Assembly (NCBI RefSeq): GCF_030285625.1 | Contig: NZ_CP127294.1 | Coordinates: 5,550,001 to 5,614,000 of the forward strand | DNA length: 64,000 nucleotides | From: Amycolatopsis sp. 2-15 | GTDB taxonomy: Bacteria > Actinomycetota > Actinomycetes > Mycobacteriales > Pseudonocardiaceae | Direction: 5' to 3' | Shown: piece after piece, positions 7,810 to 50,870 of the stretch | How positions within the stretch are numbered: the first letter of the stretch is position 1 | Layout: each line of letters starts with the position of its first letter | The notes under the pieces: model-generated | Databases searched by the model: none | What the model was told of the DNA's origin: nothing | What the model saw: the letters and a program-made list of their open reading frames with translations, nothing else | Translations under genes and position numbers: made by a program

Positions 7810-8655
7810 GTGCCCAAACGGGCCCGCCTCGACGCGGAGCTGGTCCGCCGCGGCCTGGCCCGCTCGCGGGAACAGGCGTCGGCACTGATCACCGGCGGCA
7901 AGGTCTCCGTGCGCGGCATGGTCGCGAGCAAACCCGCCACCGGCGTCGAGTCCGACGCGCCCATCGTGGTGAAGGACGAGGACGACCCCGGCTGGGCCTC
8001 GCGCGGCGCGCACAAACTCCTGGGCGCGCTGGAGAAGTTCGGCCCCGAAGGCCTCGCAGTCGAGGGCCGCCGCTGCCTCGACGCCGGCGCGTCCACCGGC
8101 GGGTTCACCGACGTGCTGTTGCGCAACGGCGCCGCGACCGTGATCGCCGCCGACGTGGGCCGCGGCCTGCTCGACTGGCGGCTGCGGACCGACGAACGCG
8201 TGGTCGTGCTCGACCGCACGAACGTGCGCAACCTGACGCCGGAGGCACTCGGCGGCCAGGTCGACCTCGTCGTCGGCGACCTGTCCTTCATCTCGCTCAA
8301 GCTCGTGCTGCCCGCGCTCGCCGAGTGCGCGCGCGAAGGCGCCGACCTCGTGCCCATGGTCAAGCCGCAGTTCGAGGTCGGCAAGGACCGCCTCGGCAGC
8401 GGCGGCGTGGTCCGCGATCCCGAGCTGCGCGTGCAGTCCGTGGTCGACGTCATCGCCGAAGCCGCGAAGCTGGGGCTCGCGCTGCGCGGGGTCGTCGCGA
8501 GCCCGTTGCCCGGCCCGTCCGGCAACGTCGAGTACTTCGTGTGGCTGCGGCGAGATCTTCGGCATCAAGATCCGGGCGAACTCGCGGCCGCCGATGGCAC
8601 TGTGGACGGTGTCGAGCGGCTCGTGCGGGCCGCCGTCCAGGAAGGACCCCAGTGA
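7810..8655 (+). CDS. tlyA: TlyA, 16S/23S rRNA 2'-O-cytidine methyltransferase
   Basis: A 281-residue protein with an N-terminal S4 RNA-binding domain (residues 5-65, RLDAELVRRGLARSREQ) and an RrmJ/FtsJ-type methyltransferase domain. The SAM loop is LDAGASTGGFTDVLL. Candidate catalytic residues are Lys in SRGAHKL, Asp in GDLSF, Lys in PMVKPQFE and Glu in GNVEYF. TlyA methylates 16S C1409 and 23S C1920 in mycobacteria, which sensitises ribosomes to capreomycin and viomycin. The older name, haemolysin A, does not reflect this role. The GTG start overlaps nothing; the stop overlaps nadK by 4 nt. Confidence 0.95.
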   Translation: MPKRARLDAELVRRGLARSREQASALITGGKVSVRGMVASKPATGVESDAPIVVKDEDDPGWASRGAHKLLGALEKFGPEGLAVEGRRCLDAGASTGGFTDVLLRNGAATVIAADVGRGLLDWRLRTDERVVVLDRTNVRNLTPEALGGQVDLVVGDLSFISLKLVLPALAECAREGADLVPMVKPQFEVGKDRLGSGGVVRDPELRVQSVVDVIAEAAKLGLALRGVVASPLPGPSGNVEYFVWLRRDLRHQDPGELAAADGTVDGVERLVRAAVQEGPQ

Positions 8656-9578
8656 CCAGCGAACGTGAAGTGCTTCTCGTGGCGCACCCGGACCGGGACC
8701 ACACGCGGGAGGCCGCACGCGAGGTGTCAGCGCGGTTCACGAAGGCCGGGATCCGGCTGCGCGTGACCGACGAAGAGGTGCGTCAGCTCATCGACCCCGA
8801 CGGCTGTATGGACATGCCCTGCACCGTCGTGGCGCCGCAGGACGACCCCGCGCGCGGAGCGGAGCTCGTGTTCGTGCTCGGCGGCGACGGCACGCTGCTG
8901 CGCGCGGCCGAGCTCGCGCGGCCCGCGGGCGTGCCGGTGCTCGGGGTGAACCTGGGCCGCGTCGGTTTCCTGGCCGAGGCCGACTCCGACGCGCTCGCCG
9001 ACGCCGTGCAGCGTGTGGTCGACCGCGAGTACCAGGTCGAGGACCGGATGACGATCGACGTCACCGTCACCCACGGTGGCGTCGAGCTCTACCGCACGTG
9101 GGCCCTCAACGAGGCCAGCGTGGAGAAGTTCTCGCGCGAGCGCGTGCTCGACGCGCTGATCGAGGTCGACGGCCGCCCGGTCTCGTCCTTCGGCTGCGAC
9201 GGCGTGCTGTGCGCGACGCCGACCGGCTCCACCGCGTACGCCTTCTCCGCCGGCGGCCCGATCATGTGGCCTGACGTCGAGGCGCTGCTCGTGGTGCCCA
9301 GCAACGCCCACGCCCTGTTCGCGCGTCCGCTCGTGGTCTCGCCCGACTCCGTGATCACCGTGGGCATCGACCCGTCGGGCCATAGCGCCGTCCTGACCTG
9401 CGACGGGCTGCGCAGCTTCGACATGCCGCCGGGCTCGCTCATGCGCGTCGTCTGCGGCCGCCGGCCGGTGCGGCTCGTGCGGCTGTGGGAAGGCGTGTTC
9501 ACCGACCGGCTGGTGCACAAGTTCGGCCTGCCGGTGCGCAGCTGGCGCGAACGGCGCACCGGCGGCCGCTCGGTCTGA
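8652..9578 (+). CDS. nadK: NAD kinase
   Basis: A 308-residue cytosolic enzyme that phosphorylates NAD+ to NADP+. It shows the GGDGT signature in VLGGDGTLLRAAEL, the NE/D motif (ALNEASVEK) and the glycine-rich TPTGSTAYAFSAGGP loop. The GTG start overlaps the tlyA stop (GTGA), so the two genes are translationally coupled, as in mycobacteria (Rv1694-Rv1695). An upstream in-frame extension exists but would overlap most of the tlyA C-terminus and is not real. Confidence 0.95.
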   Translation: MTSEREVLLVAHPDRDHTREAAREVSARFTKAGIRLRVTDEEVRQLIDPDGCMDMPCTVVAPQDDPARGAELVFVLGGDGTLLRAAELARPAGVPVLGVNLGRVGFLAEADSDALADAVQRVVDREYQVEDRMTIDVTVTHGGVELYRTWALNEASVEKFSRERVLDALIEVDGRPVSSFGCDGVLCATPTGSTAYAFSAGGPIMWPDVEALLVVPSNAHALFARPLVVSPDSVITVGIDPSGHSAVLTCDGLRSFDMPPGSLMRVVCGRRPVRLVRLWEGVFTDRLVHKFGLPVRSWRERRTGGRSV

Positions 9579-36720: not shown

Positions 36721-37089
36721 TCAGGCGAGTTCGAGCAGGAGTGTCGCCACGACCATCACGGCCGCCGTCGCGCCGTGGACGGAGAACGCGATCGCCCGGC
36801 TTCCCTTGTGGCGCAGGATGATCAGCATGTCGCCGGCGGGGATGAACGCCTCGGCGAGCAGGATCCAGCCGAGGACGTGCGGGCCGCCCGCGAGCATGGC
36901 CGCGCCCACCACCAGCCCGGACGCGATGTCACGCACGCCTTTGATGTGGAAGAACGCCGTCGTGCCGGTCGGGATCGTGGCGAGGCCGAAGCCGGCGGCG
37001 GTCTTCTCCGGCGCCAGCAGGTAACTCAGCCCCACGTAGACGATGCCGATCGCGACGATTCCGGCGATGACGTAGGCGGCGACGAGCAC
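36721..37089 (-). CDS. DUF4267 small membrane protein
   Basis: A 122-residue protein with four predicted helices (AAYVIAGIVAIGIVYVGLSY, GVRDIASGLVVGAAMLAG, VLGWILLAEAFIPAGDMLI, ATAAVMVVATLLLEL). The family has no known function and is often controlled by TetR or MarR regulators. GTG 37089 follows ggagg at 5 nt; the longer frame upstream would run through the promoter and operators and is rejected. Confidence 0.75.
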   Translation of the reverse strand: MLVAAYVIAGIVAIGIVYVGLSYLLAPEKTAAGFGLATIPTGTTAFFHIKGVRDIASGLVVGAAMLAGGPHVLGWILLAEAFIPAGDMLIILRHKGSRAIAFSVHGATAAVMVVATLLLELA

Positions 37090-37106
37090 GGGGCCCTCCA
37101 GTAAAT

Positions 37107-37169
37107 CTAGCGGTGCTAGGAACTGGGCCGACGCTAACTTAATGCCGCTAGATTGTCTAGCTGTGCTAG
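37107..37169 (-). promoter_or_regulatory. Promoter and twin palindromic operators of the DUF4267 gene
   Basis: On the minus strand TAGACA (37159-37154), 17 bp, TAGCGT (37136-37131) forms a good promoter. Two palindromes CTAGCNNNGCTAG lie at 37157-37169, overlapping the -35, and at 37107-37119, just after the expected start. A further half-site (gctag, 37147-37151) lies in the spacer. This is the layout for repression by a TetR- or MarR-type protein, yet no regulator gene is next to it. Confidence 0.7.
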
Positions 37170-37372
37170 TGACACTGCCCATGGCCGGTCGTGCTGGTGT
37201 CGCGCTCCGGCGGCTGAGCGGCCCGGCCTGGCGCGTTTGTCGGACGGGTTGCCCGACCCGGGCGAACACCCCGGCAGAGCCGCCTCACCGGCTGTGCCGG
37301 GCGGCGGGCAGAATGAACGCCGATCACGCAACGCCGATCGAACACGGCACGACGAACGCGAGGAGAGTTTCG
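37170..37372. other. Intergenic stretch before cmk, no gene seen
   Basis: About 200 nt between the DUF4267 operators and cmk. An open frame in phase with cmk runs through it but has no ribosome site or recognisable protein. G+C-rich short inverted repeats occur (around 37225-37255). The cmk ribosome site is at 37360-37364. Any remnant of a divergent regulator is not recognisable. Confidence 0.5.
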
Positions 37373-38110
37373 GTGACGGGAGCCCTACGTGGTGTGGTCG
37401 CGCTGGACGGCCCGTCGGGAACCGGCAAGACCACGGTCGCGCGCAAGCTCGCCGACCGGCTCGGCGCGGGCTACCTCGACACCGGCGCGATGTACCGGCT
37501 CGTGACGCTCGCCGTGCTGCGCGCGGGCACCGACCCGGCCGACACCGACGCCGTCGGTCACCTCGCCCACGACGTGCGCTTCAGCATCGGCACCAGCCCC
37601 GAGCGGCCCGAGGTGCGCCTCGGCGACGAAGACGTGGCCGCCGACATCCGCGGGCCAGAGGTCACGCAGGCCGTGTCCGCCGTCTCCGCGGTGCCGCAGG
37701 TGCGCGAGCTGCTCGTGGCCCGCCAGCGCCGGATCATCGCCGACGTGCTGGCCGACACCGGGGGCATCGTCGTGGAAGGCCGGGACATCGGCACGGTCGT
37801 GGCGCCCGAGTCGCCGCTCAAGGTCTACCTCACGGCGTCGGCAGACGTCCGCGCCGCGCGCCGCAGCGGGCAGGACAGCGCCGCCGGGCGCGTGACGAGC
37901 GTCGAGGCCGCCCGCCAGTCCGTCGAACGCCGCGATCGCCTCGACTCCACGCGCACGACGTCGCCGTTGCGCGCGGCCGCGGACGCCGTGCCGGTCGACA
38001 CCTCGGAGCTGTCCATCGACCAGGTGATCGTCGCGCTGTCCGAGCTGGCCTGCCGCCGCGGCCTGCTCGACGACTGCCCCGCCGGAGCCGAGGCCGAGGC
38101 GCGCGCATGA
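37373..38110 (+). CDS. cmk: Cytidylate kinase
   Basis: A 245-residue kinase converting (d)CMP to (d)CDP. The P-loop is LDGPSGTGKTTVARKLA, followed by YLDTGAMYRLVTLAVL, the lid segment VVEGRDIGTVVAPESPLKVYLTAS and the closing RRDRLDSTRTTSPLRAA. The GTG start has aggag 8 nt upstream. It overlaps the acyltransferase ATG by 4 nt. The order cmk-acyltransferase-der is common in actinobacteria. Confidence 0.95.
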   Translation: MTGALRGVVALDGPSGTGKTTVARKLADRLGAGYLDTGAMYRLVTLAVLRAGTDPADTDAVGHLAHDVRFSIGTSPERPEVRLGDEDVAADIRGPEVTQAVSAVSAVPQVRELLVARQRRIIADVLADTGGIVVEGRDIGTVVAPESPLKVYLTASADVRAARRSGQDSAAGRVTSVEAARQSVERRDRLDSTRTTSPLRAAADAVPVDTSELSIDQVIVALSELACRRGLLDDCPAGAEAEARA

Positions 38111-38766
38111 CCGGTGGCGCTCTCCCCGAGGGTGCGATCGGCCTCCTGCACGACGCCGGTCGGGTCTTCGGGCGGTACCATCTGCGGTCGGTCTTCCGGA
38201 TCCGCGTGCACGGGCGCGACCGGATGCCCGACGCCGGCCCGGTCGTGGTGATCGCCAACCACAGCTCCATGATCGAGCCGCAGCTGATTTTCGGAATGCT
38301 GCCGCGGCGTTCGGCGTTCCTGGTCAAGGCCGAGATGTTCAAGGGCGCGGCGGGATGGTTCCTGCGGGCGATCGGCCAGATCCCGGTCAAGCGGGGCGAG
38401 ATCGACCGCACCCCGCTGATGACGGCGGTCGGCGTGCTGAAGGCCGGCGGGGTCGTCGGCATCTTCCCCGAGGGCACCCGGGGCGCCGGAGACGTCGGCG
38501 TGGCCGAGAAGGGCGCGGCCTGGCTGGTCCGTGCCTCCGGGGCGACCGTGCTGCCGGTCGCGACGCGGGGCACGCTGAGGCCCGCGGACGGGAAGCGGCG
38601 CTGGCGCCCGCGCGTGGACATCCTCGTGGGGGAGCCGTTCACGCCGAAGGTGGGCCCGGGCCGGAGCGGCCTGGAAGAGGGCACCGAGGAGCTGCGCCTG
38701 CAGCTCGCGGGGCTCGTGAAGACTTTGGACGATTGGCGCGCCGAGAACCGAATCGGCTCGCCGTAG
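38107..38766 (+). CDS. 1-acylglycerol-3-phosphate acyltransferase family protein
   Basis: A 219-residue PlsC-type acyltransferase. Block I reads IANHSSMIEPQLIFG, so the usual H-x4-D is H-x4-E here; block III is GIFPEGTRGAG (intact). Block II includes GQIPVKRGEID. The family transfers acyl chains to lysophosphatidate in phospholipid synthesis. The Asp to Glu change keeps the acid but lengthens the side chain and could lower activity. ATG overlaps the cmk stop; der follows after 16 nt. Confidence 0.85.
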   Translation: MTGGALPEGAIGLLHDAGRVFGRYHLRSVFRIRVHGRDRMPDAGPVVVIANHSSMIEPQLIFGMLPRRSAFLVKAEMFKGAAGWFLRAIGQIPVKRGEIDRTPLMTAVGVLKAGGVVGIFPEGTRGAGDVGVAEKGAAWLVRASGATVLPVATRGTLRPADGKRRWRPRVDILVGEPFTPKVGPGRSGLEEGTEELRLQLAGLVKTLDDWRAENRIGSP

Positions 38767-38782
38767 GTGAAGTGGGAACACG

Positions 38783-40267
38783 ATGACAGGGTTTGACGGC
38801 GCCACTGACGCTGGGTTCGAAGGTGCCGGAGAGATCGACGGCACCTGGTCCGACGAGACCGAGTTCGCCGCGCTCGACGCGCAGATCGAGGCGGAGGGCG
38901 CCGCCGAGCAGGCGAACCTCGCGCAGCCGGTGCTGGCCGTGGTGGGCAGGCCCAACGTGGGCAAGTCCACGCTGGTCAACCGCATCCTCGGCCGGCGCGA
39001 GGCCGTGGTGCAGGACGTGCCGGGCGTGACCCGCGACCGCGTCGCCTACGACGCCTACTGGGGCGGCCGGCGGTTCACGCTCGTCGACACCGGCGGCTGG
39101 GAGCCCGACGCGACCGGCCTGCAGGCCTCCGTGGCCGCGCAGGCGGAGATCGCGATGCAGACGGCCGACGCCGTACTGCTCGTGCTCGACGCGTCCGTGG
39201 GCGCCACGGCCACCGACGAGGCCGTGGCCCGCGTGCTGCGGCGCTCGAAGAAGCCGGTGCTGCTGGCCGCCAACAAGGTGGACGACGACCGGCTGCTCGC
39301 CGACACGGCGTCGCTGTGGCGCCTCGGCCTGGGCGAACCGCACCCGGTCAGCGCGCTGCACGGGCGCAGCTCGGGCGACCTGCTCGACGCCATCATCGAG
39401 GCCCTGCCCACCGCGCCGCGCGAAGCCGGCACCGTGAGCACCGGCCCGCGCCGCGTCGCGCTCGTCGGCAAGCCGAACGTGGGCAAGTCGAGCCTGCTCA
39501 ACAAGCTCTCGGGCGAGCAGCGCTCGGTGGTCGACTCGGTCGCCGGCACCACCGTCGACCCGGTCGACTCGCTGGTCGACCTCGACGGCGAGACCTGGCG
39601 GTTCGTGGACACGGCGGGGCTGCGCAAGCGCGTGAACTCCGCCAACGGCGCCGAGTACTACGCCTCCCTGCGCACCAAGACGGCGATCGACGCGGCCGAG
39701 GTCGCGATCGTGATGCTCGACGCCGCCGAGCCGCTGTCCGAGCAGGACCTGCGGGTGCTCACGATGGTCGTCGAGGCGGGCCGCTCGCTCGTGCTCGCCT
39801 TCAACAAGTGGGACCTCGTGGACGAGGACCGCCGCCACGCGATGGTGCGCGAGCTCGACCGCGGCCTGGTCCGCGTGCCGTGGGCGGAGAAGGTGAACAT
39901 CTCCGCGCTCACCGGCCGGTCCGTGCGCAAGCTCGCGCCGGCACTGCGGACGGCGCTGAAGTCGTGGGACCAGCGCGTGCCCACCGGTCAGCTCAACGGG
40001 TGGCTCTCCGACCTCATCGCGGCCACGCCGCCGCCGGTGCGCAGCGGCAAGCAGCCGAAGGTGCTCTTCGCCACGCAGGCCGGCATCCGCCCGCCGACGC
40101 TCGTTCTTTTCACCACCGGGTTCCTCGAGGCCGGTTACCGGCGGTTCATCGAACGCAAGTTCCGCGAGCGCTTCGGCTTCGAGGGCAGCCCCGTGCGGGT
40201 GAACGTGCGCGTGCGCGAGAAGAAGGCGAAACCCAAGGTCGGCGGCAAGGCCGCCAAAACTCGCTGA
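38783..40267 (+). CDS. der: Ribosome assembly GTPase Der (EngA)
   Basis: A 494-residue tandem GTPase needed for 50S maturation. An acidic N-terminal extension of about 45 residues precedes domain G1 ([18 protein letters not shown]). Domain G2 has [14 protein letters not shown] and NKWD, then the KH-like domain ending in a basic tail ([17 protein letters not shown]). The extension occurs in other actinobacterial Der proteins as I recall. A classic terminator follows. Confidence 0.96.
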
Positions 40268-40300
40268 CGTCGCCGGACGCTGATCGGGACGCGGTTCGGA

Positions 40301-40334
40301 CGCGCCGGGGGAGTTCGCTTCCCCGGCGCGTTTT
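40301..40334 (+). terminator. Rho-independent terminator after der
   Basis: A perfect 10-bp stem (cgcgccgggg / ccccggcgcg) with a 10-nt loop is followed by TTTT. It separates the conserved operon from the pls locus. Confidence 0.92.
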
Positions 40335-40485
40335 CGCGCTCTGTCACCGAGTCTGGAACCGGTGACGTCCGACACTCGACCGTGACCCTTGCGCTATCTG
40401 ACGTTCACCTCCGCGTATCGTGGATGGCTGCACCGGGCGCCTCATTCGGAGAGCCAGCCCGAATGACGCTCGCGGAAGGTGAGTG

Positions 40486-40569
40486 ATGGGCTTGCGCCCC
40501 CTCAGTACGACTTCTTACGGCCTTTTTTCGACACCCGCGGCTACGCGGCGTGACGGGGTGGCCCGGTGA
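40486..40569 (+). CDS. 27-residue leader peptide overlapping pls
   Basis: An open frame ATG 40486 to TGA 40567-40569. It is preceded by ggaagg (40474-40479) at 6 nt, a better ribosome site than that of pls itself. Its stop overlaps the pls GTG by 4 nt (GTGA), the usual sign of translational coupling. The peptide begins MGLRPLSTTSYGLF and ends RRDGVAR. It contains no run of Lys codons, so it is not an obvious lysine attenuator. It could feed ribosomes to pls or act in regulation. No homologue is known to me. Confidence 0.5.
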   Translation: MGLRPLSTTSYGLFSTPAATRRDGVAR

Positions 40570-43500
40570 CTCTCACCGCCGACCACGCCCCCACCACCGA
40601 CCTCGTCCCTGTCCCCGACGACGCGAGCGCCGCTCTGACGTGCGTCGCCGAGGTGACCCACGCTCCCTCCGACGCGCCGGTCACCGACCGCGCCCTGTTC
40701 TGGTCCGGCCTCGGCGCCAGCGAGCGCACGCTGCTCCAGATCCTCACGGAGACGGCCGAGCAGCACCCCAACGCCGCCGCCATCGACGACGGCACCACCA
40801 CCCTGACCTACCGCCGGCTGCTCGAGGAGATCGAGACCTACGGCCGCCGCCTGCGGGCCCACGGCATCGGCCTCGGCGACCGCGTCGGCGTCCGCGTCTC
40901 GTCCGGCACGGCCGAGCTCTACGTCGCGATCCTCGCCACCCTGTCCGTCGGCGCCGCCTATGTGCCGGTCGACGCGGACGACCCCGAAGAGCGTGCGGAG
41001 CTCGTGTTCGGCGAAGCCGGTGTGGCCGCGATCGTCACCGACGGCACCATCACCGTCGCCGGCACCCCGGGCGACCGCGACGGCCGCCCCGGCCCGGCCG
41101 ACGACGCGTGGATCATCTTCACCTCCGGCTCCACCGGCAAGCCCAAGGGCGTTGCCGTCACGCACGCCTCGGCCGCGGCCTTCGTGGACGCCGAGGCGCA
41201 GCTGTTCCTCACCGAGGAACCCGTCGGCCCCGGCGACCGCGTGCTCGCGGGCCTGAGCGTCGCGTTCGACGCCTCCTGCGAGGAGATGTGGCTCGCGTGG
41301 CGCCACGGCGCCTGCCTGGTGCCCGCGCCGCGCGCCCTGGTGCGCACCGGCGTCGACCTCGGCCCCTGGCTGGTCGCGCAGCGCATCAGCGTCGTCTCCA
41401 CCGTGCCGACGCTGGCCGCGCTGTGGCCCGCCGACGCGCTCGAGGACGTGCGCCTGCTCATCTTCGGCGGCGAAGCGTGCCCGCCGGAGCTGGCCGAGCG
41501 CGTGGCCGTGGAAGGCCGCGAAGTCTGGAACACCTACGGCCCCACCGAGGCCACCGTCGTCGCCTGTGCCGCGCAGATGACCGGTGAAGGCCCGGTGCGC
41601 ATCGGCCTGCCGCTCGCGGGCTGGCAGCTGGCCGTGGTCAACGAGGCGGGTGACCCGGTCGCCATGGGCGAGACCGGTGAGCTCGTGATCGGCGGCGTCG
41701 GTCTCGCGCGCTACCTCGACGCGGAGAAGGACGCGCAGAAGTTCGCGCCGCTGCCCTCGCTGGGCTGGCAGCGCGCCTACCGCAGCGGCGACATGGTCCG
41801 CGCCGAGCACGAGGGCCTGCTGTTCCTCGGCCGGCTCGACGAGCAGGTGAAGCTCGGCGGCCGCCGCATCGAGCTGGGCGAGGTCGACGCCGCGCTGCAG
41901 TCGCTGCCCGGCGTGCAGGGCGCGGCCGCCGCGGTCCGCCGCACCAAGGCCGGCAACCAGGTCCTCGTGGGTTACGTCGTGCCGAGCGCCGGCGCCACCT
42001 TCGACTCGGACGACGCCGCCACCCGGCTGCGCGAGCAGCTCCCGGCCGCGCTCGTGCCGCTGCTCGCGGTGATCGACGACCTGCCCACGCGCACCTCGGG
42101 CAAGGTCGACCGTGCCGCACTGCCGTGGCCGCTGTCCACTGTGGACGCCGGAGCCGCCGGCCTGTCCGCCACCGAGGCGTGGCTGGCCGAAGGCTGGTCG
42201 GAGATCCTCGGCGTGTCCGTGACGGACCCGAAGGCCGACTTCTTCACCCACGGCGGCGGCAGCCTCACGGCCGCGCAGCTCATCGCGCGCATCCGCACCC
42301 GCCACCCCGAGGTGTCGGTCAACGACATCTACCAGTACCCGAAGCTCGGGTCGCTGGCCACGATGCTCGACAAGCTCAGCGGCCAGGAGACCGAACGCCG
42401 CGACATCGCGCCGACGCCGCGCCGCGCGGGCGTGATCCAGACGCTGCTGATGCTCCCGCTCATGGGCCTCGTCGGCCTGCGCTGGGCGACGCTCGCCGCG
42501 GTGGCCTCGAACGTGCTGTCGCTGCTCGGGGTCACCTGGGCGCCGACGCTGAACTGGGCGTGGCTCGTGCTCGCGTGGCTGGTGCTGTTCAGCCCGGCCG
42601 GCCGCATCGCGATCGCCGCGGGCGGTGCGCGCGTGCTGCTGTCGGGCGTGCGCCCGGGCAGCTACCCGCGTGGCGGCAGTGTGCACCTGCGCCTGTGGAC
42701 GGCCGAGAAGCTCGCGGAGTTCAGCGGCGCGGACAGCGTCGCCGGTGCTTCGTGGATGACCACGTATGCCAAGGCGCTCGGTGCCCGGGTCGCCAACGAC
42801 GTGGACCTGCACTCGCCGCCGCCGGTCACCGGCTTCCTGAAGCTGGGTCGCGGTGCCGCCGTGGAACCCGAGGTGGACCTGACCGGACACTGGGTCGACG
42901 GCGACCTCGTGCACATCGGCAAGATCCGGATCGGCGCGGAGGCCCGCATCGGTTCGCGCAGCACCCTGTTCCCGGGCGCCCGCGTCGGCAAGGGCGCGGA
43001 AATCGCCGCCGGGTCGACCGTGCGCGGCGCCGTGCCCGCCGGGCAGCGCTGGGCGGGTTCGCCCGCGGCCCACTCGGGCAAGGACGCCAAGGACGCGCTG
43101 AAGTGGCCGGCCAGCCGCCCGCCGCGGTCGCGGTTCTGGGCGACCGTGTACGGCCTGACATCGGTCGTGCTCGGCTACCTGCCGGGCATCGCGGCACTGC
43201 CGGGCGTGGCCGTGCTGGGCGCCGCGCTCTGGGGTGCGCCGACGCTGGGCGCCGCCGTGACGCAGGCCCTGATCTTCACCCCGGTCGCGACCGTCGCCTA
43301 CTTCCTCACCTACGCGCTGCTCGTGCTGGCCGGCGTACGGCTGCTAGGCGTCGGCATGGTCGAGGGTTACCACCCGGTCCACGGCCGCGTCGCGTGGCAG
43401 GTGTGGGCCACCGAGCGCCTCATGGGCATGGCCCGCGAAGGTCTGTTCCCCTTGTACGCCAGCCTGTTCACGCCGGTGTGGCTGCGCCTGCTCGGCGCGA

Positions 43501-44516
43501 AGGTCGGCCGCAACGTCGAGGCGTCGACCGTGCTCGCGCTGCCGAAGATGACGAAGGTCGACAGCGGCGCGTTCCTCGCCGACGACACGATGGTCGCGAC
43601 CTACGAGCTGGGCCACGGCTGGCTGCACGTCGCCCCGGCGCGCATCGGCAAGCAGGCGTTCCTGGGCAACTCGGGCATGACCGCGCCGGGCCGTTCGGTG
43701 CCCAAGCGCGGCCTCGTGGGCGTGCTGTCCTCGACGCCGCTGAAGGCCAAGAAGGGCTCGTCCTACCTCGGCATGCCGCCGCTCCCGGTCCGCCGGGCGA
43801 TCGGCGACGCCGACACCAGCCGCACCTACACCCCGGCGCTGCACCTCAAGGCCGCGCGGGCGTTCGTGGAGCTGCTCCGGATCGTGCCGGTGATGTGCGG
43901 GGTCGCCCTCACCGTGGGCGTCGCGTTCTCGCTGCTGGCGATCGCTTCGCTCTACGGCTTCGGCATCGCCGCGCTGCTGGCCGGGCCGGTGCTGCTGGCC
44001 GCCGGTGTCGTCGCCGCGCTCACCGCGACCGTGGTGAAGTGGCTGCTGGTCGGGAAGTTCCGCGCGATCGAGCACCCGTTGTGGAGCTCCTTCGTGTGGC
44101 GCAATGAGCTGGCCGACACCTTCGTCGAGACGCTCGCCGTGCCGTGGCTGATCGGTTCGGTCGGCGGCACGCCGCTGCTCACTGCCTGGCTGCGCACCAT
44201 GGGTGTGAAGATCGGGCGCGGCGTGTGGCTGGAGACGTACTGGCTGCCGGAGTCGGACCTCGTCCGCCTCGGCGACGGCGCGACGATCAACCGCGGCTGC
44301 GTGGTGCAGACGCACCTGTTCCACGACCGGATCATGAGCATGTCCCGGGTGGAGCTCGACGAGGGCGCCACGCTCGGCCCGCACGGCATCGTGCTGCCGG
44401 GCGCGAGCATCGGCGCGCGCACCACCGTGGGCCCGGGTTCGCTCGTCACGCGTGGCGACGCGGTACCGGCCGACACGCGCTGGCTCGGCAACCCGATCTC
44501 GACCTGGCGTCGGTGA
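40566..44516 (+). CDS. pls: Pls-type membrane NRPS, probable cationic homopoly(amino acid) synthetase
   Basis: A 1316-residue protein with the unusual layout of Streptomyces epsilon-poly-L-lysine synthetase (about 1319 residues). Adenylation domain: A3 TSGSTGKPKG near 186-195, A4 FDASCEEMW near 234, A5 NTYGPTEAT near 321. Thiolation domain: GGGSL with Ser566 for phosphopantetheine. Then six membrane helices in three pairs (about 619-690, 856-940, 1100-1165) separate three soluble domains with hexapeptide-like repeats. There is no ordinary condensation or thioesterase domain. The specificity code read by alignment to GrsA is D-A-E-S-I-G-T-V-V-K, close to the lysine code I recall (DAESIGSVAK). 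The product should be an exported iso-peptide homopolymer of lysine or a related diamino acid. Confidence 0.88.
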   Translation: MTLTADHAPTTDLVPVPDDASAALTCVAEVTHAPSDAPVTDRALFWSGLGASERTLLQILTETAEQHPNAAAIDDGTTTLTYRRLLEEIETYGRRLRAHGIGLGDRVGVRVSSGTAELYVAILATLSVGAAYVPVDADDPEERAELVFGEAGVAAIVTDGTITVAGTPGDRDGRPGPADDAWIIFTSGSTGKPKGVAVTHASAAAFVDAEAQLFLTEEPVGPGDRVLAGLSVAFDASCEEMWLAWRHGACLVPAPRALVRTGVDLGPWLVAQRISVVSTVPTLAALWPADALEDVRLLIFGGEACPPELAERVAVEGREVWNTYGPTEATVVACAAQMTGEGPVRIGLPLAGWQLAVVNEAGDPVAMGETGELVIGGVGLARYLDAEKDAQKFAPLPSLGWQRAYRSGDMVRAEHEGLLFLGRLDEQVKLGGRRIELGEVDAALQSLPGVQGAAAAVRRTKAGNQVLVGYVVPSAGATFDSDDAATRLREQLPAALVPLLAVIDDLPTRTSGKVDRAALPWPLSTVDAGAAGLSATEAWLAEGWSEILGVSVTDPKADFFTHGGGSLTAAQLIARIRTRHPEVSVNDIYQYPKLGSLATMLDKLSGQETERRDIAPTPRRAGVIQTLLMLPLMGLVGLRWATLAAVASNVLSLLGVTWAPTLNWAWLVLAWLVLFSPAGRIAIAAGGARVLLSGVRPGSYPRGGSVHLRLWTAEKLAEFSGADSVAGASWMTTYAKALGARVANDVDLHSPPPVTGFLKLGRGAAVEPEVDLTGHWVDGDLVHIGKIRIGAEARIGSRSTLFPGARVGKGAEIAAGSTVRGAVPAGQRWAGSPAAHSGKDAKDALKWPASRPPRSRFWATVYGLTSVVLGYLPGIAALPGVAVLGAALWGAPTLGAAVTQALIFTPVATVAYFLTYALLVLAGVRLLGVGMVEGYHPVHGRVAWQVWATERLMGMAREGLFPLYASLFTPVWLRLLGAKVGRNVEASTVLALPKMTKVDSGAFLADDTMVATYELGHGWLHVAPARIGKQAFLGNSGMTAPGRSVPKRGLVGVLSSTPLKAKKGSSYLGMPPLPVRRAIGDADTSRTYTPALHLKAARAFVELLRIVPVMCGVALTVGVAFSLLAIASLYGFGIAALLAGPVLLAAGVVAALTATVVKWLLVGKFRAIEHPLWSSFVWRNELADTFVETLAVPWLIGSVGGTPLLTAWLRTMGVKIGRGVWLETYWLPESDLVRLGDGATINRGCVVQTHLFHDRIMSMSRVELDEGATLGPHGIVLPGASIGARTTVGPGSLVTRGDAVPADTRWLGNPISTWRR

Positions 44517-44598
44517 GCCCGGAACCGTTGCGGCGTGTCAAGATCCGCGCGATCCTGCTGGAACAAGACCACCTCACGGAAAGCGGGGTTCTGCTCGG

Positions 44599-46017
44599 GT
44601 GACCTCGAAGGCTGCCGCGCCGGCACCGGGCGCGGAAACCTCCGCAGATTCGTACCTCCCCGGTCACGGCAACGGCGGCTACCACGTCCGCCACTACGAC
44701 CTGGACCTCGACTACCGCGTCGGGCCCAACCGGCTCAGCGGTACCGCGGGGCTCACCTGCGTGGCGACGCAGGCTCTGTCGCGGCTGACGCTCGACCTCG
44801 GCGAGTTCCGCGTCTCGCGGGTGCTCGTCGACGGCCGGCCGGCGAAGTTCGTCCGGCATGGGCTGAAGCTCCAGGTGAAGCCCGCCAGGTCGATGGCGGC
44901 CGGCACGGAGTTCCGTGTCGAGGTCCGCTACGTCGGCAACCCGCGGCCGGTGCCGAGCCGCTGGGGCGACATCGGGTGGGACGAACTCACCGACGGCGCG
45001 CTCGTCGCGAGTCAGCCGATCGGCGCTCCGTCGTGGTTCCCGTGCAACGACCACCCGGCGGACAAGGCGACCTACCGCGTCACGGTGACGACCTCGTCGT
45101 CGTACCTGGTCGCGGTGACGGGGAACCTCGTGTCGCGCTACCAGTCGGCGAGCACCGCGACCTGGGTGTTCGAGCGGCCGGAGCCGACGGCGACCTACCT
45201 GATGAGCGTGCAGGTCGGGCGCTACGACGACGTCGAGCTCGTGGCCGGTCCCGGCGCGGGCTGGTTCTCGCACCCCGAGGCGCGATCGTTCCGGCTGCGC
45301 CTCGGGTTCGGACGCGCCAGCGCCGTCGAGTCCGTGGTGTCGACCGTGCCGCAGCGGGCCGCGGTGCCGCCGCGGCTGCGCAGGGCGTTCGCGCGCGACT
45401 TCGGCCGCCAGGGCCGGATGATGGACGTGCTGCAGCGCCTGTTCGGGCCGTACCCGTTCGGTGAGTACGTGGTGGTCGTGACCGACGACGCGCTGGACGA
45501 CCCGATCGAGGCGCAGGGGATGTCCATCTTCGGCGCCAACCACGTCGACGGTCGGCGCACCTACGAGCGCCTGGTGGCGCACGAGCTCGCGCACCAGTGG
45601 TTCGGCAACAGCCTCACCGTCGCCGACTGGCGCCACATCTGGCTCAACGAGGGCTTCGCGACGTACGCGGAGTGGCTGTGGTCGGAGGAGTCCGGCGGCC
45701 AGTCGGCCGACTCGCTGGCGCGGATGTGGCACACGCGCATGCGGGCCAAGCCGGCCGACGTCCGCATCAGCGATCCGGGTGTGGGGCGGATGTTCGACGA
45801 GCGCGTGTACAAACGCGGCGCGCTCACGCTGCACGCCCTGCGCGGCGAGATCGGCGACCCCGCGTTCTTCGCGCTTGTCAAGGCGTGGACCGCCGAGCAC
45901 CGCCACGCCACGGTGAGCACCGAGGAGTTCGTCGCCTCCGCCGAGGCCTACGCGGCTCGCTCGCTGCGGCCGTTCTTCACGGCCTGGCTGGAGACACCCG
46001 CGTTGCCGGAGCTGTAA
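44599..46017 (+). CDS. M1-family zinc metallo-aminopeptidase, possible polymer-degrading enzyme
   Basis: A 472-residue peptidase. The zinc site is HELAHQW (His328, His332, Glu329 as base) with the third ligand Glu351 in LNEGFATYAEW, 18 residues on as expected. The exopeptidase GAMEN motif is replaced by QGMSIFG. A Tyr that could stabilise the intermediate lies in ERVYKRGALTLHALR. No signal peptide or membrane segment is seen. It follows pls by 82 nt on the same strand. In Streptomyces an M1-type epsilon-poly-lysine-degrading enzyme is reported with pls and gives self-protection (recalled). By context this enzyme may trim or detoxify the polymer. Confidence 0.85.
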   Translation: MTSKAAAPAPGAETSADSYLPGHGNGGYHVRHYDLDLDYRVGPNRLSGTAGLTCVATQALSRLTLDLGEFRVSRVLVDGRPAKFVRHGLKLQVKPARSMAAGTEFRVEVRYVGNPRPVPSRWGDIGWDELTDGALVASQPIGAPSWFPCNDHPADKATYRVTVTTSSSYLVAVTGNLVSRYQSASTATWVFERPEPTATYLMSVQVGRYDDVELVAGPGAGWFSHPEARSFRLRLGFGRASAVESVVSTVPQRAAVPPRLRRAFARDFGRQGRMMDVLQRLFGPYPFGEYVVVVTDDALDDPIEAQGMSIFGANHVDGRRTYERLVAHELAHQWFGNSLTVADWRHIWLNEGFATYAEWLWSEESGGQSADSLARMWHTRMRAKPADVRISDPGVGRMFDERVYKRGALTLHALRGEIGDPAFFALVKAWTAEHRHATVSTEEFVASAEAYAARSLRPFFTAWLETPALPEL

Positions 46018-46075
46018 CCGGTTCCCCCGCGCGAGCCGGGGCGGGCAGAATGGCGGCCTGATGAAGGGGGCGTCC

Positions 46076-46951
46076 ATGACGTGGCCGCAGCAGCCCGGTC
46101 CGCCACGGCGAAGTGGCGCCGGCGCGTGGGTGGCGTTCGGCGCGGTGGTGGTGGTCGTGGTCGCCTTCGGGGTGACCGCGTTCGTCGCGCCGGGGTTCCT
46201 CCGCCCGACGCGCACGGTGGCGGGCGTGGGGCAGGTCGTGCCGGGCGCTTCCGTAGCGGCTCCGCCGTCTTCGGACGCTGCTCCGCCCTCGGCGGGCGAC
46301 GGGCCGCCCGTCTCCATCCCGGCCGCGCGTACGCCGGAGCCGCACCGCCCGCAGCCGCTGGCTGACCCGTCAAGCTGCAGCTACCCGGCCGACCCGAACG
46401 GGCCCGCCGCCAAGCCCGCGACGCCGCCCGCCGACGGGCCGCAACCCGCGAGCGGCACCGTGGGCGCGACCTTGGCCACCACGGCCGGGGACATCGGGCT
46501 GACGCTGGACCGCGCGCTCGCGCCGTGCACGGTGGCGAGTTTCGTGACGCTGGCCAGGGAGGGCTTCTACACCGGGACCAGCTGCCACCGGCTCGGCACG
46601 ACCGACCTGCAGATGCTGCAGTGCGGCGACCCGGCCGGCGACGGCACGGGTGGGCCCGGGTACACGGTGCCCGACGAGTTCTTCCCGCAGCTGACCTACG
46701 GCCGCGGCCTGGTCGCGCTGGCCAACACGGGCCAGCCCACATCCGGCGGCAGCCAGTTCTTCCTGATGTTCGGCGACACGCCCATCCCGCCGACGTACAC
46801 GGTGTTCGGCACCGTCTCCGACGCGGGGCTCGGCGTGCTCGACAAGGTCGCGCGCGGCGGGGTGGACACGTCGTCGGCCAGTGCGTACGGCGACGGCACG
46901 GGCCGGCCGCGGATCCCGGTCACCTTCACAGCGGTGACGGTCCAGGGCTGA
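46076..46951 (+). CDS. Membrane-anchored cyclophilin-type peptidyl-prolyl isomerase
   Basis: A 291-residue protein with one N-terminal membrane helix (about residues 17-40, GAWVAFGAVVVVVVAFGVTAF) and a Pro/Ala/Ser-rich linker (to about 125). The cyclophilin domain shows FVTLAREGFYTGTSCHRL, the DEFFPQLTYGRGLVALANTG segment and GSQFFLMFGDTPIPP. It folds or acts on secreted proteins outside the membrane. ATG 46076 is preferred over 46061 because aagggggcg precedes it. Several catalytic positions of classical cyclophilins are changed (CHRL for FHRV). Confidence 0.85.
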   Translation: MTWPQQPGPPRRSGAGAWVAFGAVVVVVVAFGVTAFVAPGFLRPTRTVAGVGQVVPGASVAAPPSSDAAPPSAGDGPPVSIPAARTPEPHRPQPLADPSSCSYPADPNGPAAKPATPPADGPQPASGTVGATLATTAGDIGLTLDRALAPCTVASFVTLAREGFYTGTSCHRLGTTDLQMLQCGDPAGDGTGGPGYTVPDEFFPQLTYGRGLVALANTGQPTSGGSQFFLMFGDTPIPPTYTVFGTVSDAGLGVLDKVARGGVDTSSASAYGDGTGRPRIPVTFTAVTVQG

Positions 46952-47018
46952 CCAAGCCGCAGGAGTATCGGGCGTCGCGATCAACGTCGCGCACGAAGCG
47001 GTGGCCCCGTAACGCGGT

Positions 47019-47072: not shown

Positions 47073-48833
47073 TCAGGCGCGGGACAGCACCGTCTTCAGC
47101 GCGGCCAGCAGCGCCGTCGTCGCTTCGGGTTCCGTGGCGCCGGTCGACTGGCGCCAGGCCACGTAGCCGTCCGGGCGGACCAGCAGCGCGCCGGCTTCGT
47201 CGATCTCGCTCGCGCGGGTCCAGTCGCCGTAGGAGTCGCGGGCGCCCTCGGCTCCCACGGTCACCACGCGCAGGTCGAGGCCGAGCTCAGCGGCCGCCTT
47301 TTCGGCGGCCATGCGCCAGGACTCGCCCGACAGGCCGGTGACAACGCTCCAGCGGCCGGCGCCCACGAGGTCCAAAGTGGACACCCGGCGCCCGTGCGAA
47401 CCGACGAGCCACACGTGCGGGATCTTCGCGCCCGGTGTGGTCGTGGCCTGGTGGAACAGCTCCGGGTCCCGGCCGGACACCGGAGCTGTGCCGCTCGAGC
47501 CGTCCGGGATCACCGCGGTCGACGCGTAACGCTGGTCCAGCTCCACGCCGTGGGCGTTGAACTCGTAGTGCTTGAGCTCGATGGCCTTCTCCAGCTGGCG
47601 GCGCTTGCGGGCCCCGTCCTCGGTCGGCGCCTCGCACGCGGCCAGGCCGGCGGCGATGGCGTCGGCGTCGGTGTCGCCGGTGATGCCGAGCGTTTCGAAG
47701 ATCGGGCCGAACTGGTCGCGTGACAGGTTCGCGCGGTCCACGATCTGCTTGCCCACCGGCGCGCGCTCGGCCGAGTAGGTCTCCAGCAGGTCCTCGCCCG
47801 CCTCGCCGCGTACCACCATCGCGAGCTTCCACGCGAGGTTGTACGAGTCCTGGATCGACGTGTTCGAGCCGAGGCCGTTGGACGGCGGGTGCCGGTGCAC
47901 GGCGTCGCCCGCGCAGAACACGCGGCCGCTGGAGTACTGCGTGGCGTAGCTGTGGTTGACCGTCCACAGTGAAGTCGAGGTGATCTCGACTTCCAGCTCC
48001 GGGTCGCCGATGAGGTCGCGCACGATCCGCGTCGCCTCTTCCGCGTCGACCTCGGGCGGCGCCTGCGCGATGTCGTAACCCCACACGAGCAGCCACTTGT
48101 TCCACGGCCGCACCATGCGGACCAGGCCCATGCCGATGCCGCCAAGGTGGGCGCCGGGCCGCATGACCCAGTAGAGCACGCTCGGGCGGTGCGCCACGTA
48201 CTTGCCGAGGTCGGCGGTGAACGTGATGTTCATGCTGCCGGCCTTGCCCGTCTCGCCGGCGATCGGCAGCCCGGCCTGCTCGGCGACGCGGCTGCGCGCA
48301 CCGTCGGCTCCGACGAGGTAGCGCGCCCGCAGCGTGAACTCGTCGCCGCGGACGCGGTCGAGGAAGCGGGCCGTGACGCCGTCGGCGTCCTGGGTGAAGT
48401 CGAGGAACTCCGTGTCCAGGCGCAGTTTCGCGCCGCGCTCGGCGGCGTTGGTCGCGAGGATCGGCTCCAGGTAGGTCTGGGGCAGGTCGATCATGTGGCA
48501 CGGGCTCGCGGCGCCGTACTCGGTTGCGGAGCGGTCGCCGGTGCCCCAGCTCGCGATGCGTCCGATCTCGTTGCCGGCCAGCGACGTGCACAGCACGGTG
48601 TCGCCCATCAGCTCCGGCGGCGTGCCCTGCGTCAGGGCCTGTTCCTCGATGCCGAGATCGCGCAGGACCTCCATGGCGCGCTGGTTGGTGATGTGGGCGC
48701 GCGGGGTGTTCGCCGTCCAGCCGTACTTGGTGGCCAGCACCGTGCGCACGCCGTAGGTGGCGAGCAGCAGGGCCGCGGTTCCCCCGGCCGGCCCGCTGCC
48801 GACCACGATGACATCGGTGTCGTATTCGCTCAT
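47073..48833 (-). CDS. FAD-dependent aromatic hydroxylase (TfdB/resorcinol hydroxylase type)
   Basis: A 586-residue class A flavin monooxygenase. The FAD fold starts VIVVGSGPAGGTAALLLA, the DG motif is in YLVGADGARSRVAEQAG, and the GD motif is RVFCAGDAVHRHPPSNGLGS. The long C-terminal thioredoxin-like domain is typical of phenol hydroxylases. It probably hydroxylates resorcinol or a chlorinated phenol to hydroxyquinol, since the gene 14 nt upstream handles hydroxyquinol. The exact substrate is inferred. Start ATG 48833 has a ggtggga site upstream. Confidence 0.85.
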   Translation of the reverse strand: MSEYDTDVIVVGSGPAGGTAALLLATYGVRTVLATKYGWTANTPRAHITNQRAMEVLRDLGIEEQALTQGTPPELMGDTVLCTSLAGNEIGRIASWGTGDRSATEYGAASPCHMIDLPQTYLEPILATNAAERGAKLRLDTEFLDFTQDADGVTARFLDRVRGDEFTLRARYLVGADGARSRVAEQAGLPIAGETGKAGSMNITFTADLGKYVAHRPSVLYWVMRPGAHLGGIGMGLVRMVRPWNKWLLVWGYDIAQAPPEVDAEEATRIVRDLIGDPELEVEITSTSLWTVNHSYATQYSSGRVFCAGDAVHRHPPSNGLGSNTSIQDSYNLAWKLAMVVRGEAGEDLLETYSAERAPVGKQIVDRANLSRDQFGPIFETLGITGDTDADAIAAGLAACEAPTEDGARKRRQLEKAIELKHYEFNAHGVELDQRYASTAVIPDGSSGTAPVSGRDPELFHQATTTPGAKIPHVWLVGSHGRRVSTLDLVGAGRWSVVTGLSGESWRMAAEKAAAELGLDLRVVTVGAEGARDSYGDWTRASEIDEAGALLVRPDGYVAWRQSTGATEPEATTALLAALKTVLSRA

Positions 48834-48847
48834 GGTGGGAGTCCTCG

Positions 48848-50773
48848 TCAGTGCGCGGGGGCGGGGGAGATGCGGAACGTGAAGTCGAGGCGGCGCCAGC
48901 CGTTCGCGGGCTCGCGGCCGTCGGGCGCGGCACCGGACTGCTCGGCGAAGTCGACGATCAGCCCGTCCTTGACGCCGAACACCGTGTCGGAGTCGAGGTA
49001 GTCGCCGCCCTGGACGAACAGCTGCGTCACCAGCGTGCGGAAGCCGGGCTTGGCAATCATGAAGTGCACGTGCGGTGCGCGGAACGGGTGGCGCCCGACC
49101 GAGTCGAGCATCTGCCCGACGGGACCGTCGGCCGGGATCGGGTAGGCCGAGGGCACGATGGTCCAGAACCTCAGCCGGCCCTCGGCGTCGGTGCGGAAGC
49201 GGGCGCGCAGCACCGGGCCGTCGACGTCGGGCAGCTGGACGTCGTAGAAACCGTCCTCATTGGACTGCCAGACGTCCACGACGGCGTCGGCGACGGGAGA
49301 GCCGTCGGTGTCGGTGACACTGACGTCCGTCCACAGGGGAGTGCCGGGCAGGCCTTCGGCGAGGTCGGCGCCCTGCGCGGTCTCGGGCGGGCCCTGCACG
49401 TAGAACGGGCCGAGCACGGCCGACGGGGTGGTGTCGGGGGTGCGCGAGTTGGTGAGCACGTCGACGACGCTGGACACACCGAGCGTGTCCGAGAGCAGGA
49501 TGAACTCCTGCCGCTTGTCGTCGGTGATGTGCCCGGCACGGGTGAGGAACCCGATCGCGTACTCCCACTCCTCCTGTGTGAGGTCGGTGCGCAGCACGTA
49601 GGCGTGCAGGGTGCGGACCAGGTCCTGCAGCAGCTCGCGCAGGCGCGAGTCCGGGGCGGTCGCGAAGCTCTCCACGACTTCGGTCGTCAGGCCGCGCACG
49701 TCCGGCTTGCTTCCTTCGGCCGGGGCGGGGCGAGTGCCCGCGTGAGCCTGGCGCAGCAAGTCCTCGATGCCCTCGCGGGTTACCTCGCGCGGGTTCGGGT
49801 AGGGCTTGGCGGTGGCGATCTCGGCGGCCTTCGCGATGTCGTCCTCGGTGAACCCGAGCTCGCCCAGCGAATGCGGCACCGGCAGGCTCGCGATGAGGTC
49901 GTACACACCGGTCGCGGCGTCGGGTGCGCCCAGCGCTTCGGCGATGCGGCGCATGGCGTCGGGGGCGCCGGTGGTGTTGTAGGCCATCGCGTAGGGCAGG
50001 ACGACGGTGTGGGTTTCGGAGTGGGGCAGGTTGAAGCTGCCGCCGAGGGTGTGGCAGAGCTTGTGGTGCAGGGCCATGCCGACCGAGCCGAGGCAGGTGC
50101 CGGCGAGCCAGGCGGCGCGCAGGGCTTCGCTGCGGGCGTCCACATCGGAGGGGTCGGTGGCGATGCGGGGGAGGGCGGTGGCGAGCAGGCGGATCGCTTC
50201 GAGGGCGAATTGGTCGACGACGGGGTTGGCGTCGGGTGAGTAGAGGGCTTCGACGGCGTGGGCCATGGCGTTGATGCCGCTGGTGAGGGATACCTGCACC
50301 GGCAGTTTCAGGGTGAGGTCCACGTCGTAGACGACGACCTCGGGCTGCACCTTGGGTGTGGTCTGGGTGGACTTGCGTCCGCCGGCGGTCTCGCCGAGGA
50401 CCGGCGTCATCTCGGAGCCGGCGTAGGTCGTGGGCACGATGATCTGCGGCAGGTCCGTGCGCAACGCGATCGCCTTGGCCAGGCCGGTCGTCGAGCCGCC
50501 GCCGATGGCGAGGACGCAGTCGACGTCGTTCTCGGTCACGACCTTGAGCGCGCGCTCGGTCACGTCCACGGGGGTGTGCATCGCGGCCTCGTCGAAGCGG
50601 GCGGCGAGCAGCGGGCCGAGCGAGCCGGCGACGCGGTCCGCAGGCCCGGCCAGCGGCGGGCTGCCCAGCAGCAGGACGCGGGTGGCACCGAGGCGGCGCA
50701 CCTCGTCGGGCAGCGACGCGAGGGTGCCGCTGCCGAAGACGACCCGGGCCGGGTTCGCGGTGTAGCTGAACAT
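48848..50773 (-). CDS. Fusion of maleylacetate reductase and hydroxyquinol 1,2-dioxygenase
   Basis: A 641-residue bifunctional protein. Residues 1-355 are an iron-type alcohol dehydrogenase of the maleylacetate reductase group (LAIGGGSTTGLAKAIALRT, TYAGSEMTPVLGET, metal-site segments AMAHAVEALY, ALHHKLCHTLGG, LPHSETHT). Residues 375-641 are an intradiol dioxygenase with Tyr in EDGFYDVQLP and VPSAYPIP and the His pair in FRAPHVHFMI. The second half opens hydroxyquinol to maleylacetate, and the first reduces it to 3-oxoadipate. A Pro/Glu linker joins them. ATG 50773 has aagga 6 nt upstream; the longer frame is rejected. Confidence 0.9.
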   Translation of the reverse strand: MFSYTANPARVVFGSGTLASLPDEVRRLGATRVLLLGSPPLAGPADRVAGSLGPLLAARFDEAAMHTPVDVTERALKVVTENDVDCVLAIGGGSTTGLAKAIALRTDLPQIIVPTTYAGSEMTPVLGETAGGRKSTQTTPKVQPEVVVYDVDLTLKLPVQVSLTSGINAMAHAVEALYSPDANPVVDQFALEAIRLLATALPRIATDPSDVDARSEALRAAWLAGTCLGSVGMALHHKLCHTLGGSFNLPHSETHTVVLPYAMAYNTTGAPDAMRRIAEALGAPDAATGVYDLIASLPVPHSLGELGFTEDDIAKAAEIATAKPYPNPREVTREGIEDLLRQAHAGTRPAPAEGSKPDVRGLTTEVVESFATAPDSRLRELLQDLVRTLHAYVLRTDLTQEEWEYAIGFLTRAGHITDDKRQEFILLSDTLGVSSVVDVLTNSRTPDTTPSAVLGPFYVQGPPETAQGADLAEGLPGTPLWTDVSVTDTDGSPVADAVVDVWQSNEDGFYDVQLPDVDGPVLRARFRTDAEGRLRFWTIVPSAYPIPADGPVGQMLDSVGRHPFRAPHVHFMIAKPGFRTLVTQLFVQGGDYLDSDTVFGVKDGLIVDFAEQSGAAPDGREPANGWRRLDFTFRISPAPAH

Positions 50774-50870
50774 CGTTGGTCCTTCCACGCGGGTGCTTCG
50801 AGTATCCGGATGTCGCCGCCCGGTTTCCTGCACGAACCTGTCGTGCCGGCAGCACGAAACGCGCGCGCGA

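Follow-up and report, generated by a model that had tools for sequence, protein, structure and literature searches.

The window analysed here, a stretch of 64,000 nucleotides from Amycolatopsis sp. 2-15 (contig NZ_CP127294.1, positions 5,550,001 to 5,614,000, forward strand), carries a gene, pls, that very probably encodes an epsilon-poly-L-lysine synthetase (Pls) and is probably co-transcribed with the gene for a PldII-type peptidase downstream (Table 1). The enzyme adds a member to a known family, its product can be predicted (a known antimicrobial polymer), and antiSMASH-predicted epsilon-poly-L-lysine clusters in Amycolatopsis have already been described (PMC11004387). The part of the locus that merits a second look is the leader, a short open reading frame (ORF) with a conserved upstream element, which may control Pls production. 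A sequence-only reading made earlier had named the gene and its family, both of which stand; it had missed the downstream M1 peptidase gene and the conserved leader upstream.

Domains and substrate code of the synthetase

The third-position G+C of the pls ORF is 0.95, a strong coding bias, and the ORF call bears out the length of 1316 residues given in the sequence-only reading. The assignment to the Pls family made there is right and strong. The NCBIfam model TIGR02353 covers the full length of the terminal domain (708 bits, with the cut-off at 423), the highest-ranking relative of known structure is 7WEW, the adenylation (A) domain of Streptomyces albulus epsilon-poly-L-lysine synthase (667 bits), and the tree described below agrees. 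Pfam matches comprised PF00501 (AMP-binding; amino acids (aa) 61-382), PF13193 (AMP-binding_C), PF00550 (carrier) and hexapeptide repeats, with no condensation or thioesterase family in the protein at E<=1. From the layout proposed earlier, the A, carrier (T) and Pls/PosA terminal domains were each matched. The six transmembrane helices are read from hydropathy only, with hydrophobic stretches at approximately 627-648, 665-688, 864-896, 896-936 and 1097-1166 that are compatible with three membrane-helix pairs.

Pattern searches found motifs A3, A5, A7 and A8 and the carrier GGGS intact. The A10 pattern used gave no match, and TSGKVDR, which contains K513, is nonetheless there. Aligning 22 terminal domains, taken from enzymes with several codes and from two proteins without an A domain, gave the invariant residues Q1248, H1250, D1254, N1035, D1006, R974 and R1210 (window protein numbering). 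The motif Q-x-H-x-x-x-D (aa 1248-1254) is unchanged across all 22, the two A-less proteins included, and this cluster is a candidate condensing or catalytic site.

The ten code positions were located by means of the A-domain motifs that we take to be conserved. They were checked against PosA, the ornithine enzyme, whose code is given as DMEHNGTVSK in PMC10522769; the same alignment columns reproduce it (DMEHNGTVS) at 9/9 aligned positions. The window A domain is 65.5% identical to 7WEW over 493 residues, and its code, DAESIGTVVK, is the same at 10/10 positions. The code itself had been read correctly before. The two differences from the lysine code claimed at positions 322 and 331 do not exist, since all ten residues equal those of 7WEW. 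The suggestion of an undescribed polycation built from ornithine or diaminobutyrate (Dab) is unsupported because it rested on that misremembered lysine code; the residues are those of S. albulus Pls, not those of PosA or of the Phe-type enzymes.

The authors of PMC10522769 propose that code position 2 sets substrate length, with Phe for diaminopropionate (Dap) or Dab, Met for ornithine and Ala for lysine, and their Discussion gives Phe at this position for poly-Dap and poly-Dab enzymes. The window Pls has Ala at position 2 and Val at position 9, so that neither the Met and Ser of PosA nor the Phe of the poly-Dap/Dab enzymes is present. Outside the window, we took 80 loci that were the best matches, among the matches listed, to query-derived peptide patterns in the GTDB species collection. 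One of these patterns overlaps the code region, and the set is a biased sample because it was picked by such patterns from the matches listed. The code is identical in 79/79 readable orthologs from these loci, the other (L060, a metagenome-assembled genome) being frameshifted.

Peptidase partner, relatives and product

In 80/80 of the best-matching loci an M1 peptidase gene lies downstream of pls in the same orientation, at a distance of 235 bases or less in 78 and of 637 and 688 bases in two. An M1 gene also accompanies pls in 26/26 ortholog loci of the genus identified by their terminal domain, and in 7 of 12 loci from other genomes (L125-L136). These seven are the ones with a full-length Pls; the remaining five, which are fragments or have no A domain, have no M1 gene either. 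None of 18 Pls-family paralogs chosen from those listed in the genus has an M1 gene beside it within flanks of ~4 kb. Since pls with a pldII peptidase gene is the epsilon-poly-lysine arrangement described in PMC8117764, the pls-M1 gene pair suggests that PldII belongs to the M1 family. The two genes are probably co-transcribed.

A Pls ortholog of 75-100% identity was found in 60/60 sampled Amycolatopsis genomes, split or broken in two of them (G045, G046). The terminal-domain family was above cut-off in 60/60 of these and in 8/149 genomes drawn from the whole phylum, a count that includes the genome of the window. The A-domain tree had 50 rows: the window, 29 chosen from the 79 orthologs, the 18 paralogs, 7WEW and a 180-residue fragment of PosA, the last two being the only characterized references. 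The window enzyme falls inside a starred clade of 30 M1-linked enzymes (99 in the Shimodaira–Hasegawa-like approximate likelihood ratio test, SH-aLRT). Lysine-code paralogs come after 7WEW, and a branch of length 2.94 separates off PosA together with the DF-code paralogs; the placement of PosA and of paralog L151 is unsure because the tree is a quick one with long rows.

Six of the 18 paralogs have the lysine code or a one-residue variant of it (L137-L142), eight have DFEYxGTVTK, three DFECLSxV and one DSECYGGVTK. Phe thus stands at code position 2 in L143-L150 and L152-L154, and these DF-code paralogs are 31-38% identical to the window enzyme. L137-L142 each encode a second copy of Pls that shares 53-57% identity with the window enzyme and keeps the lysine code, in some cases with a single I to V change; none has an adjoining M1 gene. 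DSECYGGVTK belongs to L151, a Pls-family paralog in genus member G059, and PMC10522769 gives it as the code of a Bdellovibrionales enzyme with modest L-arginine activity. The DFECLSVVTK paralog L152 (3978-8042, minus strand) overlaps by four bases a gene at 8039-9352 (minus strand) that looks aspartokinase-like by eye; a legend in PMC8117764 names an aspartate kinase among the genes of a related locus.

Proteins of another kind were seen in the same genome outside the window. L014 (10478-13330, minus strand) and L015 (10142-13042, minus strand), at approximately 7.70 and 7.27 Mb of G000:C1, encode one or two carrier domains and a Pls/PosA terminal domain with no A domain. Next to each are one gene of the TauD family and one for an AMP-binding protein; L014 is further accompanied by OCD and pyridoxal phosphate (PLP)-dependent genes resembling SbnB and SbnA, which suggest a Dap supply. 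In another species, L156 has OCD and PLP genes alongside its A-less protein, and an A-domain match as well. These three are possibly a split Pls system, which was not apparent in our literature search.

By analogy with characterized relatives, the A domain of the window enzyme would adenylate L-lysine and load it onto the carrier domain. The membrane-embedded terminal domain would then, again and again, attach the lysyl group on the carrier to the epsilon-amine of free lysine or of a free oligomer; the resulting cationic polymer would be polydisperse and at no point covalently held. The M1 peptidase would degrade the polymer and protect the producer, and the coupled leader ORF and conserved upstream element may set the level of pls translation. 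As outlined in PMC9205021, the Pls cycle begins with adenylation and thioesterification of lysine, which the tandem C-terminal domains then couple to a lysine or an oligomer in free form, and the chain, ~25-35 residues long, is not covalently held; polymer degradation and producer protection by the peptidase are described for relatives in PMC8117764 and PMC9205021. The domains, the identity of the code, the gene pair, the tree placement and the conservation seen here are the parts that such a mechanism needs.

A different polycation, made by activating ornithine, Dab, Dap or beta-lysine instead of lysine, is very improbable. A-domain codes are imperfect predictors, and PosA, a fellow family member, makes poly-ornithine (PMC10522769); on the other side stand the ten residues equal to those of 7WEW, the Ala at the proposed length-setting position included, and a scan of 12 neighbouring ORFs showed no enzyme for the supply of Dap, Dab or beta-lysine. 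On the identity of the code, the peptidase partner and the tree we rejected another diamino acid; the substrate is by far most likely to be L-lysine, and the product epsilon-poly-L-lysine. We infer that this copy of Pls is expressed and makes the polymer.

Several observations weigh against that conclusion. In the quick tree, 7WEW is the sister of the M1-linked clade (SH-aLRT 89) and not within it. The six membrane helices are placed by hydropathy alone, the last pair being one 70-residue stretch. L137-L142 have the lysine code and no peptidase gene, so that code and peptidase are separable in the genus. Corynebacterium variabile, with the same gene pair, gave no polymer in culture in the account of PMC8117764, and the window pls may therefore be silent. 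It is rather unlikely, on balance, that the enzyme is a Pls by descent that is silent or serves another role than that of a secreted antimicrobial. The C. variabile protein was undetected in its own host according to PMC8117764, and an ortholog in every sampled genome of the genus is a better fit to a general role than to a strain-specific weapon; opposed to this are the intact motifs and the conservation of reading frame, leader and peptidase partner.

Leader reading frame and conserved element upstream of pls

To describe the leader we used the window and the upstream DNA of 59 further genus genomes (60 in all). A leader ORF starting Met-Gly, of 15-33 codons, precedes pls in 57/60; it is lacking in three (L208, L209 and L212). 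Its stop overlaps a start codon in the pls frame in 57/57, in 53 as ATGA or GTGA and in four as TGATG. The Met-Gly start was a selection criterion for the leader ORF and the stop-start overlap was not. The presence of a coupled leader ORF before pls in the genus is well supported, and it may act by setting the translation of pls. The coupled leader is also lacking in the more distant loci L020, L026 and L027, and a short coupled ORF precedes pls in some other genera, among them Pseudonocardia (L023, L025), Streptomyces (L034, L045) and Actinacidiphila (L044). A universal coupled leader was rejected, a lenient test being positive in only 29/80 ortholog loci, some probably by chance, and in 3/17 paralogs (one of the 18 had no anchor).

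When six upstream regions were aligned, one block stood out from its flanks by its better conservation; it takes in the ribosome-binding site and the start of the leader ORF. Its 5′ part, GGGCGCCTCA with up to two substitutions allowed, was found by script in 58/60 genus genomes including the window, and was seen by eye in L188 and, partly, in L212. Beyond this 5′ part, conservation of the block is only partial in the rows that diverge most (L209, L211, L213 and L214).

A covariance model of the element has a single match in the entire genome at E<=1, the one at pls, and a repeated or regulon-wide motif was rejected. Searched over the window together with all 80 named loci except L059 (80 sources in total), the model matched eight Amycolatopsis pls leaders, the window's included, and that of Prauserella endophytica (L027, E 0.018); two weak matches (L073, L076) lie away from any pls start. 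The match at pls of A. pithecellobii (L020, E 0.0008) is weak, as is that of P. endophytica. In 100 family genomes there were 8 matches: four in the genus, one, weak, at pls in another GTDB genus (L220), whose leader is closely like that of L020, and three weak ones with no pls in the surrounding 3 kb. No Rfam family reached its gathering score in 37000-47000, weak matches in 40268-40700 being far below theirs, and a known riboswitch was therefore rejected. No sigma-70-type promoter or intrinsic terminator was found in 40240-40620 by consensus scan. Control of pls by a leader or untranslated region was not found in the literature searched, PMC8994273 included, where the Amycolatopsis leader ORF and conserved element look unreported.

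Support for an RNA structure in the element is modest. In the helix UCAxx/xxUGA, two pairs change on both sides: columns 12-32 hold UA 17, AU 9, UG 4, GC 1 and unpaired 9, and columns 13-31 hold UA 23, UG 7, CG 6 and unpaired 4. The covariation score of helices H1 and H2 together exceeded those of 500/500 shuffles, uncorrected for relatedness, and of six slid versions. Folding of the window's leader RNA gave z -2.6, with 3/200 shuffles as good. In a direct arm test, 43/62 sequences were paired at all five positions (L212 was without arms), and distinct arm pairs matched fully in 7/21 cases against 33/324 mismatched combinations, a modest covariation. Other results speak against an RNA. Two of five covariation measures were not above the shuffles (two-sided-change pairs, 3 against a mean of 3.6; pair types, 12 against 13.6). 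RNAalifold favours pairing of CGCCU with AGGUG, the ribosome-binding site, over the H1 and H2 helices, and H2 is weak, its two parts pairing in 77 and 81% of cells. The CGGGC...GCCCG dyad gives no covariation evidence because it is nearly invariant.

We hypothesize an RNA switch in the pls leader. Tentatively, and as slightly less than an even bet, we propose that an undescribed Amycolatopsis 5′ leader governs pls: a conserved, partly paired RNA of ~70 nucleotides whose nearly invariant CGCCU would pair with the ribosome-binding site of the leader ORF, with leader translation coupled to that of pls through the stop-start overlap. If so, the leader would switch the translation of an enzyme that makes an antimicrobial polycation, perhaps in response to acid pH, lysine or the polymer itself. 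The upstream element could instead be a DNA operator and promoter region, with the leader ORF a mere by-product, which we consider possible at somewhat short of even chances. In favour of this reading, the nearly invariant dyad yields no covariation evidence and the covariation of the other helix is modest (7/21 against 33/324). Against it, the leader keeps its stop over the pls start, in the pls frame, in all 57 genomes despite its range of lengths, and the ribosome-binding site and leader ORF start sit within the conserved block.

Neighbouring genes and comparison with known systems

The features of the locus are collected in Table 1. No tRNA was found in 37000-47000. Further downstream, a single ORF of 661 aa (48848-50833, minus strand) encodes both an iron-type alcohol dehydrogenase (aa 28-363) and, after it, an intradiol dioxygenase (aa 395-640); an FAD hydroxylase gene (47073-48833) adjoins it, and the ORF is perhaps a fused aromatic-degradation enzyme.

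Table 1. Features in and around the pls locus, in window coordinates
Feature	Position	Strand	Basis
Conserved pls-leader element, candidate cis-regulatory RNA: CGGGCGCC...GCCCG...AAGGTGAGTGATGGGC	40434..40505	+	Upstream alignments, covariance model
Leader ORF MGLRPLSTTSYGLFSTPAATRRDGVAR, 27 codons; TGA overlaps pls GTG start (GTGA)	40486..40569	+	Upstream alignment across genus
pls, predicted epsilon-poly-L-lysine synthetase (A - T - six-transmembrane terminal domain), 1316 aa, GTG start	40566..44516	+	ORF, NCBIfam TIGR02353, Pfam, 7WEW match, tree
Adenylation domain, ~aa 61-525, lysine code D235 A236 E239 S278 I299 G301 T323 V331 V332 K513	40746..42140	+	Pfam and 7WEW alignment
Carrier (T) domain, aa 539-601; GGGS at aa 563-566, expected phosphopantetheine serine 566	42180..42368	+	Pfam, motif search
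Pls/PosA terminal domain, aa 623-1311: membrane helices, C1-C3 segments, hexapeptide repeats	42432..44498	+	NCBIfam, Pfam, alignment, hydropathy
PldII-type M1 metallopeptidase, 472 aa, HELAH...NE zinc motif	44599..46017	+	Family scan; GTG start chosen by eye
der (EngA) GTPase, upstream housekeeping neighbour, outside the system	38783..40267	+	Family scan
cmk (d)CMP kinase, upstream housekeeping neighbour, outside the system	37142..38110	+	Family scan

Within the family, the poly-Dap and poly-Dab synthetases differ from the window Pls in having Phe where it has Ala at code position 2. The DFEYxGTVTK and DFECLSxV paralogs of the genus are likewise members of the family, and no M1 peptidase gene was found near the 11 examined. 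PosA, the delta-poly-L-ornithine synthetase of Acinetobacter baumannii (PDB 8G95-8G98), has the same three-part architecture; it differs in its code, DMEHNGTVSK, and in its single-gene operon (PMC10522769), and lies on the far side of the tree from the window enzyme, as placed from its fragment.

The closest likeness is to S. albulus Pls, from which the window enzyme differs by sequence divergence, with an A domain 65.5% identical and ten equal code residues. The layout described for it in PMC8117764, an A domain, a T domain and a six-transmembrane terminal domain with a pldII peptidase gene alongside, is that of the window. In the window genus the overlapping leader ORF and conserved element precede pls; the comparison with S. 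albulus is of the enzymes. C. variabile Pls, likened to the window by description, belongs to the same family and the same pls-peptidase operon type, and differs in being 51% identical to the Streptomyces enzyme; expressed in S. coelicolor, it made epsilon-poly-lysine (PMC8117764).

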